64,000 nucleotides of DNA from an uncultured Eubacteriales bacterium (lineage in GTDB: Bacteria; Bacillota; Clostridia; Lachnospirales; Lachnospiraceae), in the NCBI GenBank assembly GCA_951800645.1, contig CATOIK010000001.1, positions 248,001-312,000 of the forward strand, in the 5' to 3' direction. Positions 2,760 to 22,682 of this stretch are shown one piece after another. Both the position numbers and the translations under genes were made by a program. The notes below the pieces were generated by a model. The model ran no database searches. It worked only from the letters and a program-made list of their open reading frames with translations, and had not been told where the DNA came from. The stretch's first letter is position 1. Each line of letters opens with the position of its first letter.

Positions 2760-3638
2760 TTATGGCCGTCCCAGGCACTCCATCACTGCCTGCATCTCCG
2801 GAGACACCCATTTGTCCCGGTGATATAAAAGCTGCTTCCACACCTCCACCTGCAGCCTGGGAGTATTCAGCCGCACAACCTGACCTGCCTCCACAGCCTC
2901 CTGGGTAACAAAATCCGGCAGGAAGCCACAGCCCAGCCCCTGACTTACCAACTGGGTAATAAGAATCGTATCTCCCAGTTCCAGAAACGGTTCCAGTTCC
3001 AGGGACATACTGGCTAACCTTTCTTCCAGCATTTTCCGGTAGCTGACATTTTTCTCCGTAAAAATCATAGGCTTATCCAGCAGCTCCTCCGGCTCCACCT
3101 TCGGTTTTCCTGCCAGCGGACTGGCCGGCGATACAATAAAATGAGTCTCCACAGGCTCCTCGTAGGCCGTCACATAGCTGCGGTCGTAAATATGATTGTC
3201 CAGAGTGTAAACCAGGTCTACCTGGTTCTCGTTCAGCATCTGAAACATCTCCTCCGTAATCCCCGTAAGAATGGTCAGGCGAATATCCGGGTAACGGTTT
3301 ACAAACTCCCGAAATTCCTCCTTCAAAAGCCAGCCGCACAAAGAGTCTGCCATAGCGATACGGACTGTGCCCCGCAAATTCTTATTCTCTCCTGCCGCCC
3401 GCCTCATATCCTCTGCCGTCTGCACCATCTGATGGGCCAGCTTTAACACTTCCCGCCCCTGGGCCGTCAGCCGCACCGTATGGCGAATCCGCTCAAACAG
3501 CGGGGTTTCCAGTTCAGTCTCTAACTGGCGGATTTGAAAGGATATGGTGGACTGAGTGTAACCCAGCCGTCTGGCTGCACGGGTAAAGCTGCCTAATTCT
3601 GCCACCTGGATAAAGCTTTCCAGGTTCTTTAATTCCAT
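2760..3638 (-). CDS. LysR family transcriptional regulator
   Basis: The 292-residue protein starts with a classic LysR winged helix-turn-helix (residues 1-60; LGSFTRAARRLGYTQSTISF, then IRQLETELETPLFER). A periplasmic-binding-protein-like effector domain fills about 90-290. LysR proteins usually control a divergently transcribed neighbour, and here the AGCS amino-acid symporter starts 138 bases away on the opposite strand. The inference is that it regulates amino-acid uptake through that symporter. The ATG has a GGAGG site upstream. The effector ligand is unknown. Confidence 0.92.
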   Translation of the reverse strand: MELKNLESFIQVAELGSFTRAARRLGYTQSTISFQIRQLETELETPLFERIRHTVRLTAQGREVLKLAHQMVQTAEDMRRAAGENKNLRGTVRIAMADSLCGWLLKEEFREFVNRYPDIRLTILTGITEEMFQMLNENQVDLVYTLDNHIYDRSYVTAYEEPVETHFIVSPASPLAGKPKVEPEELLDKPMIFTEKNVSYRKMLEERLASMSLELEPFLELGDTILITQLVSQGLGCGFLPDFVTQEAVEAGQVVRLNTPRLQVEVWKQLLYHRDKWVSPEMQAVMECLGRP

Positions 3639-18160: not shown

Positions 18161-19558
18161 TCACCGCTTTCCCAACTCCCAGAAGGCAATTCCAGCCGCC
18201 ACCGAAGCATTTAAAGAATCTGCGCCCCAGCCCATAGGAATCTTCACCGTAAAGTCACAGTCTGCAATGGTCTCCTCCGCCAGTCCGTCCCCTTCCGTTC
18301 CGATGACAATCGCCAGCTTTTCCTCCTGTTTTAAAACCGGGTCATCCAAAGCGATCGAATCCTCCTTAAGGGCCATAGCCACTGTCTTAAAGCCCAGCTC
18401 CTTCAGTATGGATACGCCCTGGGACGGCCACGGCTCCCGAATGCTGTCAAAATAAGTCCAGGGAATCTGGAATACAGTTCCCATGCTGACCCGGCTGCTT
18501 CGCCGGTACAGCGGATCGCTGCATCCAGTCGTCAAAAGCACCGCGTCTAAATTTAACGCCGCTGCAGAGCGGAAAACAGAGCCTACATTGGTAGGATTCA
18601 TCACATTTTCCAACACTGCAATCCGGGACGCTCCTGCCAACAGCTCTTTTGCCGCAGGCAAAGGCTTCCGCCTCATGGCGCACAGCACGCCTCTGGTAAG
18701 GGGAAATCCAGTTAGCTGCTTCAACACCTCAAACTCTGCCGTGTAGACCGGAATATTGCCGCACCGACTGATAATCTCTTTCGCTTCTCCCTGAATATGC
18801 TTTGTCTCCACCAAAAGAGAAACAGGCTCGTATCCTGCATTCAGAGCACGCTCTACCACCTTGGGACTTTCTGCAATGAAAAGCCCGGCGTCCGGCTCAT
18901 GAAACCTCAGCAACTGCACCTCAGAAAACCGGGCGTACACATCCAGCTCCGGCATAAAAAAATCCGTGATGGCTCTTACATCCACATCTTCCAATTCCTG
19001 CCCGTTTGCCACCTCATGCCGGTATACATCTGATGGGTGGCTTCGCAGCACTCCCCGGCCTCCCCGGTCTCCGGTAATGGCCTTCAGCTCCGGAAAATAC
19101 TCCCTGGAAAAAATGGCGGGATTTCCATCCTTCCCCTGACAGCTTAAAGAAGCCAGTCCCAGCCCGCTTTCCTGCCAGCCTTCTACTAAGGCTTTTATGG
19201 TCTCTCCTTTCAGCCAGGGCTGATCGCAGACAGAAAAGCAGACGGCCTCTGCGCCGGTTTCTTCTGCTGCCGCCAGTCCCAAATGCATGGAATGAGAAAT
19301 GCCCAGATGGCTTTCCCGGTTTTCCACAGCCGTAAAGCCCAGCTCTGCAGCGCAGTCAAGAATAGGCCGATACTGACTGACCAAAATCTTTTTACAGAAA
19401 AAATTCTCCGGCAAAGCCAGCACCTCATCCACCACATGGCGGTACATGAGGCGCCCATCCACTTCATCCAGCAGCTTGTTGCCGCCGTAGCGCCTGCTGT
19501 CTCCTGCTGCTAAAAGCACCAGGGCTATCGTTCGGTTCTTACTTTGTTCTGCATGCAT
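18161..19558 (-). CDS. Fusion of a YgfJ/MocA-like nucleotidyltransferase with a TrmH-family (SpoU) RNA methyltransferase
   Basis: This 465-residue protein has two recognisable enzymes in one frame. Residues about 8-195 are a MobA/MocA-type nucleotidyltransferase (LAAGDSRRYGGNKLL; VCDQPWLKG), like the YgfJ accessory family of molybdenum hydroxylases. Residues about 200-465 are a SpoU-type SAM-dependent 2'-O-methyltransferase with motif 1 NPTNVGSVFRSA, motif 2 VIGTEGDGLAEE and motif 3 DSLNASVAAGIA. GGAGG lies about 7 bases before the ATG. Its 5' end overlaps yqeB by 34 bases. The junction lies next to a run of seven T's (18956-18962 as A's on the plus strand), so a sequencing indel or recent gene fusion should be considered. 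The frame stays open throughout and both domains look intact. Confidence 0.85.
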   Translation of the reverse strand: MHAEQSKNRTIALVLLAAGDSRRYGGNKLLDEVDGRLMYRHVVDEVLALPENFFCKKILVSQYRPILDCAAELGFTAVENRESHLGISHSMHLGLAAAEETGAEAVCFSVCDQPWLKGETIKALVEGWQESGLGLASLSCQGKDGNPAIFSREYFPELKAITGDRGGRGVLRSHPSDVYRHEVANGQELEDVDVRAITDFFMPELDVYARFSEVQLLRFHEPDAGLFIAESPKVVERALNAGYEPVSLLVETKHIQGEAKEIISRCGNIPVYTAEFEVLKQLTGFPLTRGVLCAMRRKPLPAAKELLAGASRIAVLENVMNPTNVGSVFRSAAALNLDAVLLTTGCSDPLYRRSSRVSMGTVFQIPWTYFDSIREPWPSQGVSILKELGFKTVAMALKEDSIALDDPVLKQEEKLAIVIGTEGDGLAEETIADCDFTVKIPMGWGADSLNASVAAGIAFWELGKR

Positions 19559-20334
19559 AAGATTGCCTCCAACACCCCTCCGCCAATGGAAGACGCTTTA
19601 TCTGACACAGTAAAGCAGTGTTTTTTCTCACATCTGGGGTCTACATCTCCTGATTTCATCCCGGCAGTTACCGGCACATCATCCTGCAAAAGCCCTCGTA
19701 CAACGCCGTCAATCTGGGCATAAATGGGATGCTCTCCGGCATAGCCTACCAACTGCCCGGCCTTTACCTCATCACCAATTTCCACAACTCCCTTAAACAG
19801 ACCGTCTCCAGTTGCCCGAATCAGCCGTTCCAGACCATAGCCTCCAATCAGCCCCGGCACGCCGGTATTGGGGATGGCGCTGCCCTCCCAGATGCACCGG
19901 CCCAGATAATGCCCCCGTTTGGTTTCTACTACACAATGGCAGTCTGCTCCGGCGGTAAAGCCCGGTCCTACGCCAATGACAACCGGCGCATCGGTAATTT
20001 CCGTCCCCAGATTACGCTTTGCCAGAATAGCATCCACAACCACATCCGGCTTTATTTTTTCTATAATATCAGCGTCTTCATCCACTACAACAGCGATATT
20101 TCCATTTTTTAGTGTATTTTCTACCACTTCCAAGCAATCACACCGCACGCCAGCCACATCTTCCACCTGCATCTGCCCCAGATACACCGCCGGAGAAAAG
20201 GCCACTGTCCGCCGCACCGTAGTAGGTATCGAAATCTCTGTCATCACCACCTGAAAGCCGCTGCGAAAAAGCCGCAGTGCAATGCCGGTAGCCAAATCTC
20301 CGGCCCCCTTGATCACAACTCGTCCCATATTCAT
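19525..20334 (-). CDS. yqeB: YqeB-family selenium-dependent molybdenum hydroxylase accessory protein
   Basis: The 269-residue protein begins with a dinucleotide-binding-like segment (VVIKGAGDLATGIALRLFRSGF) and contains the YqeB blocks GVGPGFTAGADCH, VVETKRGHYLGR and DVDPRCEKKHCFTVSDKASSIGGG. YqeB was defined by comparative genomics as a marker of selenium-dependent molybdenum hydroxylases, alongside YqeC, XdhC, YgfJ and SelD. Its biochemical role is not settled. GGGAGG precedes the ATG by 9 bases. It lies between the YqeC-XdhC fusion (upstream) and the YgfJ-TrmH fusion (overlapping), so the three are one transcription unit. Confidence 0.92.
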   Translation of the reverse strand: MNMGRVVIKGAGDLATGIALRLFRSGFQVVMTEISIPTTVRRTVAFSPAVYLGQMQVEDVAGVRCDCLEVVENTLKNGNIAVVVDEDADIIEKIKPDVVVDAILAKRNLGTEITDAPVVIGVGPGFTAGADCHCVVETKRGHYLGRCIWEGSAIPNTGVPGLIGGYGLERLIRATGDGLFKGVVEIGDEVKAGQLVGYAGEHPIYAQIDGVVRGLLQDDVPVTAGMKSGDVDPRCEKKHCFTVSDKASSIGGGVLEAILCMQNKVRTER

Positions 20335-20353: not shown

Positions 20354-22603
20354 TCACTGCTCTCCCAGTTTCTCCATCCGAATGTCCACAGCGCCGCCGC
20401 ACCACATGCCCAGGGCTGCCGCTGTGCTGTGGTTTACCTCATAGGTTTTTTCCAGAACCTGGCCTGCTGTTTCCTGGTTTAAAAATTCCCAGGCATCCGC
20501 CGATGCCGCCGCTTCCATAAGACCGCCGCCAATGGTTCCAATCAGCTTCTTTCCACTTCCATCCTCTGCCGGACACACTACCATCCGTGCTCCGACGCCT
20601 CTGGGAGCAGACCCCCGCTTTCCGGTAATAGTCAGCAGCACCCCTTTTTTACCGGCTCTTAAAAACCGGGCCACTGCCGGATCCAAACGGCTTAAGGTTT
20701 GATTTTGATTCTGCACCTGAATCAGCTCCGCCACAATGCTGACAGCAATCTCCTTAGGCGTCTGCCCCCCCAGCTTCAGTCCGATGGGAGCGTGAATCTG
20801 GCTTAACACTTCCTCTGAAAATCCCTTTTCCTTCAGCACCTCCATGGTCTTTGCCACCTTGGCCTTGCTTCCGATCATGCCCACATAGCCAAAGGGCTTT
20901 GCAAGCACCTGCTCCAGACATTCTAAATCTGCCTCATGCCCCCTGGTAACAATAATGTAGCAGGCATTGGAAGAAAATCTCTCTTTTTTAAGAAGCTCCG
21001 GCATCGCTCCGCAAAGACACTGCTTTGCCCCCGGAAACCGGTTCCTGCTGCAGAATTCCTGCCGGTCGTCCATGATTGTATAGCTGTATTCCATAAAATC
21101 TGCTAATTTAGAAAGCTCCAGAGAAATATGACCGCCGCCGCAGATTACCAGCTGGCTTTCTTCCTGGATGTCAAGGGTCTCTGGCTGCCAGACTTCCGCC
21201 CCAGTCATTTCCCGGGCTGCCGCCTCCTGCAGATCTGCCTTAATCTGCGCGTCTTCTTCAATCCGGTAAGCTGTAACTGCGCACCCCTCCTGCATGGGAA
21301 ACGGCAGCAGCTTCGCCGCCGCCTCTGCAGCCATCTGTTTTTCTTCTCCATCTGCCTGGTTTAACACCACCCGGTAATACCGGCCGTCTACTGCCTTGTG
21401 GCTGCCCCGCTCATCCATCAGAATAAGGGCTAAATCTGCCGGTTCCACCTTATCCTCTGCGCTTCTTCTAAGCCATGCCCCCTGTGTGTCAAACCGGAAG
21501 CAAACCTCTCCAAAGGGGCGGCCCAGGGCAGACAGCCCAACGCAGCCGATCACCAGTCCGGTCTGAGGCAGAATTACCGGTTCATAGGTTTCCGGCACCT
21601 TTATGGGAAGACACCTGGCTCCGTCTGCCTCTACCAAAATTACATCTGCCAGTTCCAAAAGGCGGGAAAGCTCTGCCTCTTCAGAAAGGCCATCCGGCAT
21701 GGCAAGCTTTTTCCCCACCGGTTTTCCGGCTGTCAGGATCAGGCCGTGCCAGGAGTCTTCGGTAATCTCACGGACATGGCTTACTGCTGCAGTCTGTTCT
21801 TCACAGACAGGCCGCCGGATATGCGTGCTGGTGGTCACTAAAACCCGCTTTCCCTGCTCTGCCAGCTCGTCTGCCAACTGGTACATGGTAGAAGTTTTTC
21901 CTCCGCCTCCTACCAAAGAGACAATGGAGGGAATCTCATGACCCGGACCAAATCCCAGCGCAGAAAGCAGGGTCTGGGCCGGCTTCATGGCGCCTGCAGA
22001 AGCGTCCCAGGTCTTTACCAGTGTCATCCGCTGATTCCTGTTCCAAAGGCTTACATGCTTTTTCCTGCCTTCCTGGCCCAGCATCATGGTGTAAATCTGA
22101 TCCAGCTCTGCGTCTGCCTGACAGGCTTTCTCCTTCAGCGGCAGATATAGAATATCAAACTCTACCCCAAACAAGATCTCCTTTGTCCGGGTTACATAAC
22201 AGCCGTTTTTCTCGTAAAAATGAATCCGGCGATGCCGCATCTGCCATTCTTCTTCATCAACCGCTGCCCGCTCCGACTCGCATTCTAAAAAAATCCCCTT
22301 TTCTTCCCCATAATACTGCCCTAAAAGCCGCAGGAAATGACTGCCGTAGCCGCCTCCCCGCACTTCCCTGCAGACAGCCAGAAAATCCAATAAAAGATAA
22401 CCACTCTGCCGGTTCCGGATCAGGTGACCGTAAGCCCGCAGCTTACCATCCTCATAAAGTCCCAGACAGTCATAAAAGCCCCGGTCCACCCGGTCTTTTA
22501 AAACCTTAAGAGGCGGCAGCTCGCTTTTGGGAAAGTCCTTTATCATATAGCTTTTGTACACTTCTTCCAGTTGAGCCAGACTTAGTAATTTTAATTCCAC
22601 CAT
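20354..22603 (-). CDS. Three-part fusion: GNAT acetyltransferase - YqeC - XdhC
   Basis: In this 749-residue protein, residues about 1-160 are a GNAT domain with the acetyl-CoA loop RGGGYG (83-88). Residues about 195-460 are YqeC-like: P-loop VGGGGKTST (231-239), TTSTHI, VEADGARCLPIK (324-335). Residues about 484-635 are the XdhC Rossmann domain: VICGGGHISLEL, a DDR motif at 512-514, IVTRGHEAD, YVGMIGSKAK. Residues about 645-746 are the small XdhC/CoxI domain: GSAPRGVGARM, GTIGGGLMEA. The Rossmann domain precedes the small domain, reversed from classical XdhC. XdhC proteins insert and mature the cofactor of molybdenum hydroxylases; YqeC is tied to the selenium-dependent type. No frame break is visible. 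The fusion implies the GNAT part works in the same maturation pathway, but its substrate is unknown. Confidence 0.88.
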   Translation of the reverse strand: MVELKLLSLAQLEEVYKSYMIKDFPKSELPPLKVLKDRVDRGFYDCLGLYEDGKLRAYGHLIRNRQSGYLLLDFLAVCREVRGGGYGSHFLRLLGQYYGEEKGIFLECESERAAVDEEEWQMRHRRIHFYEKNGCYVTRTKEILFGVEFDILYLPLKEKACQADAELDQIYTMMLGQEGRKKHVSLWNRNQRMTLVKTWDASAGAMKPAQTLLSALGFGPGHEIPSIVSLVGGGGKTSTMYQLADELAEQGKRVLVTTSTHIRRPVCEEQTAAVSHVREITEDSWHGLILTAGKPVGKKLAMPDGLSEEAELSRLLELADVILVEADGARCLPIKVPETYEPVILPQTGLVIGCVGLSALGRPFGEVCFRFDTQGAWLRRSAEDKVEPADLALILMDERGSHKAVDGRYYRVVLNQADGEEKQMAAEAAAKLLPFPMQEGCAVTAYRIEEDAQIKADLQEAAAREMTGAEVWQPETLDIQEESQLVICGGGHISLELSKLADFMEYSYTIMDDRQEFCSRNRFPGAKQCLCGAMPELLKKERFSSNACYIIVTRGHEADLECLEQVLAKPFGYVGMIGSKAKVAKTMEVLKEKGFSEEVLSQIHAPIGLKLGGQTPKEIAVSIVAELIQVQNQNQTLSRLDPAVARFLRAGKKGVLLTITGKRGSAPRGVGARMVVCPAEDGSGKKLIGTIGGGLMEAAASADAWEFLNQETAGQVLEKTYEVNHSTAAALGMWCGGAVDIRMEKLGEQ

Positions 22604-22682
22604 TTTCCATCCTCCATATTAAGAAAGGGATGCCCAGGGTTCTTCTTGAACCGCATCCCCAAAATTTTGATTTCTGCCCCTT

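Follow-up and report, generated by a model that had tools for sequence, protein, structure and literature searches.

The open reading frame at 20354..22603 (minus strand) of the window, by which we mean the whole 64-kb stretch of DNA analyzed here, joins a GNAT acetyltransferase to YqeC and XdhC domains and raises the question of whether acetylation is a step in the maturation of selenium-dependent molybdenum hydroxylases (SDMHs). The first-pass annotation had placed GNAT, by inference, in the maturation route of its fusion partners. The use of selenium signaled by YqeC and YqeB is poorly understood, and the available part of PMC11448449 ranks it as the least understood of the biological roles of this element; gene fusions offer one of the few hints of how these proteins cooperate. 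In the GNAT–YqeC case, inference from fusions alone would mislead: the protein probably arose by fusion of adjacent genes in one lineage, with GNAT as a passenger that keeps its own job and not a new pathway step, and YqeC–XdhC most plausibly forms a compact SDMH maturation unit.

Architecture and genomic setting of the fusion protein

The frame comprises 749 codons without an internal stop, starting at an ATG preceded by 7 bases by GGAGG (22611..22615, minus strand), a likely ribosome-binding site. It encodes, in order, GNAT, YqeC, an XdhC Rossmann domain, and a small CoxI/XdhC domain, as first annotated; the coordinates were also right, and the strand is the minus strand. Frame 1 of the plus strand over the same interval is crowded with stops.

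The GNAT domain (residues 1–190; 22034..22603, minus strand) matches Acetyltransf_1 (PF00583) at residues 12–114 with 24.5 bits, little above the Pfam cut-off of 20.7. Residues 1–200 are predicted, together with 39 relatives, to adopt a GNAT fold (mean pLDDT 95.3), and a PDB fold search with the predicted structure gave 602 matches at E ≤ 0.001, among them many GNAT structures. By the Pfam match over cut-off and the predicted fold, the domain is assigned to the GNAT superfamily; its RGGGYG is presumably the acetyl-CoA loop motif. The nearest GNATs by fold are RimI (5isv), 3ey5, and SpeG, which have the complete GNAT fold in common with it, and the 50 listed fold matches are 9–19% identical to it. 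NCBIfam gave no match to the domain in the window, and weak RimI matches were obtained for 8 of 40 relatives (best E-value 1.5e-7). PDB sequence and fold searches with the domain returned generic GNATs only, pointing to no substrate.

Behind a linker (residues 191–226; 21926..22033, minus strand) lies the YqeC domain (residues 227–433; 21305..21925, minus strand), a predicted P-loop protein with the motifs GGGGKT and VEADGAR. It reaches 180.5 bits with TIGR03172, well above the curated NCBIfam cut-off of 73.05, and the Pfam YqeC model matches residues 228–371 with 132.1 bits. Separate translation of YqeC from an ATG within the linker, the start codon considered, is unlikely, as the two linker methionines are poorly kept: the first is also present in genome G201 of the same genus and is isoleucine in G214 and G215, and the second is absent from G201.

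The XdhC part consists of an XdhC_C Rossmann domain (residues 485–627; 20723..21151, minus strand; PF13478, 141.6 bits) and an XdhC_CoxI small domain (residues 648–713; 20465..20662, minus strand; PF02625, 56.4 bits). Both score high and differ from the known XdhC system in having the Rossmann domain first and in standing behind YqeC. The whole-protein models TIGR02964 (137.5 bits, cut-off 161.6) and NF045664 (244.7 bits, cut-off 350) remain under cut-off with both domains present, and the fusion is therefore described only as carrying XdhC domains. By homology, these would bind molybdenum cofactor and pass it to the hydroxylase; XdhC of R. capsulatus has reportedly been studied for cofactor binding and insertion.

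YqeC (TIGR03172/PF19842) is a proposed SDMH accessory protein according to the consulted sections of Haft and Self (PMC2276186), and the full-length domain is present in the fusion protein as well. As in the YqeC system, the gene lies beside YqeB and a MocA-type gene, with selD in the genome; unlike plain YqeC, the protein has GNAT ahead and XdhC following. C. difficile encodes YqeC as a gene of its own; according to the available part of PMC11448449, deleting it had no obvious phenotype and yqeB was required, yet supplying yqeB to a double mutant restored it only in part. The sections of Haft and Self (2008) at hand also describe YqeB proteins fused to XdhC domains (PMC2276186), which likewise combine an SDMH accessory protein with XdhC, the partner there being YqeB and here YqeC. 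Those sections contain no occurrence of "acetyltransferase" and do not mention GNAT, and the accessible text of PMC5322559, on new selenium genes, has neither term. No literature with a GNAT–YqeC or GNAT–XdhC protein was found in a search covering few subscription journals, which lends the architecture a weakly supported claim to newness.

The neighborhood of the gene bears out the annotation of YqeC and XdhC as SDMH accessory-factor domains. Only 19 bases downstream lies yqeB (19525..20334, minus strand; TIGR03309, 360.3 bits against a cut-off of 220), which is overlapped by 34 bases by a frame of 465 aa (18161..19558, minus strand) encoding a MocA-type nucleotidyltransferase fused to a SpoU methylase (PF12804, 111.6 bits; PF00588, 106.5 bits). 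The MocA part scores 112.3 bits with TIGR03310, below the cut-off of 186. In G201, in contrast to this MocA–SpoU fusion, SpoU is a separate 282-aa gene immediately after YqeB–MocA.

In the host genome, selD is over cut-off (385.7 bits; G000:C2) and lies next to a gene for a YedE-type selenium transporter. The contig of the fusion gene also carries, about 71–76 kb away, a selenium-dependent xanthine dehydrogenase (TIGR03311, 1214 bits), with YgfK (1381 bits) and SsnA (TIGR03314, 616 bits) nearby. Two more XdhA-like hydroxylases are present, one above the XdhA cut-off. At the genus level, selD is over cut-off in 7 of 24 genomes and selA in none of the 24, with weak SelA matches in 4. Because SelA is over cut-off in no genome of the genus, the host selD resembles that of the orphan-selD species described in the consulted portion of Haft and Self (PMC2276186). 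Judged by these gene contents, the genus may be an orphan-selD lineage, with selenium use perhaps restricted to molybdenum hydroxylases. As a separate observation, a LysR regulator about 17 kb from the fusion (2760-3638, minus strand) has as its best NCBIfam match the selenium metabolism-associated LysR model, at 142 bits and under the model cut-off of 250.

GNAT and maturation genes within the genus

GNAT and YqeC share a frame in four of the 24 genus genomes, namely the window's genome, G201, G214, and G215. In G201, all four domains are in one frame, with 58.8% identity over residues 3–746, and G214 and G215 have GNAT–YqeC frames. The linker can be aligned across all four, its post-GNAT segment reading NRNQRM in the window, NRNRRM in G201, RRSRRI in G214, and NRSSRI in G215, which speaks for a single fusion event. 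The single locus obtained in a contig scan with the full fusion protein (L042) is most probably the G214 fusion contig itself. The host genome is an incomplete draft (2.42 Mb, 83% complete, 36 contigs), a state in which a frame error or misassembly could have joined separate genes. This explanation is highly improbable, however, and a frame error confined to the window's assembly, one of the two refuting conditions named in the first-pass annotation, is itself refuted by the recurrence of the fusion in three other genomes, which likewise speaks against a chance frame.

Within the closest pair, the window and G201, the domains are constrained and the linker less so. The GNAT domains are 64% identical with a dN of 0.27 (dS not measurable), and the YqeC domains are 68% identical with a dN of 0.23 and a dS of 1.67; dN and dS are 0.19 and 1.75 for the Rossmann domain, 0.40 and 1.62 for the small XdhC domain, and 0.50 and 1.00 for the linker. 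All four fused GNATs keep the residues that are invariant across an alignment of 40 GNATs. With fused GNAT present in four species and under purifying selection in the closest pair, a secondary role is possible. One alternative to the passenger reading is that the fused GNAT was recruited into SDMH maturation, where its acetylation target would be a maturation protein, the hydroxylase, or an intermediate of the cofactor, or where it would signal the acetyl-CoA level to YqeC–XdhC. The constraint on GNAT in the closest pair and the invariant residues and alignable linker kept in all four fusions are in its favor, as is the finding of no second GNAT of the same family in the window's genome, which held no second match to the fusion protein at E ≤ 0.001. 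We nevertheless consider recruitment unlikely, given the distribution of the unfused gene.

Most GNATs of this family in the genus are not fused to YqeC. Among the 18 genomes with GNAT, 4 have it fused to YqeC and 14 have it as a distinct, unfused gene, 13 of the latter with neither a YqeC match nor selD over cut-off. Relatives free of the selenium trait thus have, at the equivalent position, GNAT by itself. A distinct GNAT gene in close relatives, unlinked to yqeC/xdhC, is the other pattern that the first-pass annotation had named as refuting its proposal. The exception, G207, has a YqeC–MocA protein and an unfused GNAT elsewhere in the genome. YqeC, counted as matches of the fusion protein in the 24 genomes, occurs in 6, each of which belongs to the 7 that have selD over cut-off, and GNAT co-occurs neither with selD (p = 1.0) nor with YqeC (p = 1.0). 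The idea that GNAT marks the selenium trait was accordingly rejected.

Gene order suggests how the two halves came together. Downstream of the unfused GNAT, 8 of 14 loci have a gene for a conserved protein of ~210 aa and/or NfnA–NfnB, and one has DHFR as well. The maturation genes of G201 and G214 sit exactly between GNAT and the conserved ~210-aa gene, in the order GNAT–YqeC(–XdhC), YqeB–MocA, SpoU (in G201), ~210-aa gene, DHFR, NfnA, NfnB. In G213, a YqeC–YqeB–MocA protein in one frame precedes the ~210-aa gene, DHFR, NfnA, and NfnB, and the genome contains no GNAT match. At equivalent positions, GNAT may thus be by itself or joined to the maturation genes, or the latter may occur with no GNAT. 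Both G213 and G207 argue against recruitment, since their maturation genes are found without a GNAT match in the one case and with GNAT unfused elsewhere in the other.

The probable course of events is that the maturation genes came to lie directly behind a resident GNAT gene and that loss of the GNAT stop codon gave a single frame. One polypeptide would then carry the YqeC and XdhC maturation parts behind an acetyltransferase with its own unrelated substrate, the halves presumably working independently. Such a fusion may serve co-expression and, for YqeC–XdhC, possibly cofactor hand-over; the direction of events is deduced as well. A GNAT of the same family provides an illustration of how this gene may join onto whatever lies behind it: in G205 it is fused to a Nudix domain (L057:5490-6521, 343 aa), and in G209 its counterpart and a Nudix gene are two distinct genes with an 11-base overlap (L058:8276-9338).

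It could also be proposed that GNAT is functionally tied to its usual neighbors in the genus (the ~210-aa gene, NfnA–NfnB, and sometimes DHFR), folate or redox metabolism being examples of a shared function, and that the maturation genes merely landed in this cluster. The basis for this idea is the gene order at the 8 unfused loci described above, one of them with DHFR. It appears improbable to us: at 22 family GNAT loci outside the genus, no gene family adjoins most GNATs, and neither the ~210-aa gene, DHFR, nor NfnA–NfnB was recognized within the window's 64 kb. The ~210-aa protein itself (L043:4161-4811 in G201; L047:9031-9666 in G216) is found at 10 of the 18 genus loci L043–L060, and the G201 copy is without a Pfam or NCBIfam match.

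The trees group the four fused GNATs with the unfused GNAT of G216 (support 100/97), which pairs with the fused GNAT of G215 (95/80). Similarly, the five YqeC domains of the corresponding place form one group (100/99), with that of the GNAT-less G213 beside G201 (97/84). These placements of G216 and G213 would imply renewed separation of the halves. Downstream of the unfused G216 GNAT, a search for traces of YqeC yielded nothing above chance level. Because a single fused clade is not rejected (p-AU 0.0975 for GNAT and 0.29 for YqeC), the evidence for any later splitting or loss of GNAT is gene order and not the trees.

Some observations speak against the passenger reading. The fusion is kept in four species, and the closest pair has diverged to the 64% and 68% identity given above, which would be time enough for selection of a useful link. 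The fused GNATs fall into one small tree group, and this branch might have changed its job. Finally, the molybdenum hydroxylase domain PF20256 is present in 4 of 4 genomes with fused GNAT versus 5 of 14 with unfused GNAT, which would fit recruitment too. PF20256 occurs in 12 of the 24 genus genomes, including all 7 with selD, and its presence in every fused genome follows from the tracking of selD by YqeC.

Distribution in the family and the phylum

The wider surveys do not support the proposed role for GNAT in the maturation route. In a family sample of 200 genomes from 199 genera (GNAT profile cut-off E ≤ 1e-10), GNAT was found in 56 genomes and YqeC in 62, with an overlap of 17 (odds ratio 0.96, p = 1.0). 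For the 30 strong GNAT matches (E ≤ 1e-40), the overlap with YqeC in the 200 genomes was 7 (odds ratio 0.64, p = 0.40), leaving 23 without YqeC. Thus, GNAT does not co-occur with yqeC in the family, nor with yqeC or selD in the genus, as a component of the SDMH system should, and this lack of association in the family counts against recruitment. Apart from the window's, family GNAT frames are 99–251 aa long, plus one weak 429-aa match in G088, whose YqeC is a 233-aa frame on another contig.

In a phylum sample of 398 genomes (GNAT profile cut-off E ≤ 1e-15), GNAT was found in 24, and only the window's GNAT lies in a frame longer than 329 aa; the weak matches in G088 (429 aa) and G616 (329 aa) were left unopened in the family and phylum counts of long frames. 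The lack of a long frame with the same GNAT in the 397 other genomes sampled is a further point against recruitment. A more specific version of that proposal, in which GNAT would be an acetyl-CoA-dependent switch of selenium–molybdenum cofactor delivery through acetylation of the hydroxylase or a maturation partner, is unlikely; such a switch, if true, would tie purine hydroxylation to carbon state. No GNAT–YqeC frame was seen outside the genus in the family and phylum samples. A GNAT fusion seen in one genus only gives no ground for assigning an acetylation step to the pathway, and we return to the passenger reading as the probable one.

XdhC domain order and other fusions of YqeC

The reversed order of the XdhC domains, which had been singled out in the first-pass annotation, is real and yet usual. 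The Rossmann domain precedes the small domain in 31 of 33 distinct two-domain frames (35 versus 2 before removal of four repeats), a share that is biased upward as most of the loci were fetched by similarity to the fusion protein. The order was therefore rejected as a special feature among the frames examined. A YqeC–XdhC protein of 565 aa with the same order and without GNAT is encoded in G003 (L139).

YqeC fusions are common, and GNAT fusions are rare. YqeC is over cut-off in 114 of the 398 phylum genomes; rows under cut-off, which include many short matches within frames ~880–920 aa long, were left out. Among the 42 other YqeC frames of at least 340 aa over cut-off, 40 were opened (G235 and G482 were left out), and these comprised 35 YqeC–MocA proteins, 4 HTH–YqeC proteins, and 1 without a recognized partner. 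The GNAT profile, which would miss an unrelated GNAT, had no match in the open frames of those 40 loci, and a Pfam scan of the five long YqeC frames without MocA and of one MocA frame with a long N terminus found no GNAT.

The fusions that recur and are informative are YqeC–MocA, YqeB–MocA, YqeC–XdhC, and HTH–YqeC, the last being more informative than the GNAT fusion. The four HTH–YqeC genes, all on the minus strand, are located at L156:1891-3183 (G513), L157:1953-3134 (G244), L158:1929-3095 (G597), and L162:1979-3085 (G327). Their N-terminal HTH is of the LysR type (PF00126), above cut-off in 3 of 4, and we take it to resemble the HTH of ModE. A DNA-binding domain on YqeC suggests, from domain content, a regulator that would answer to molybdenum or selenium status.
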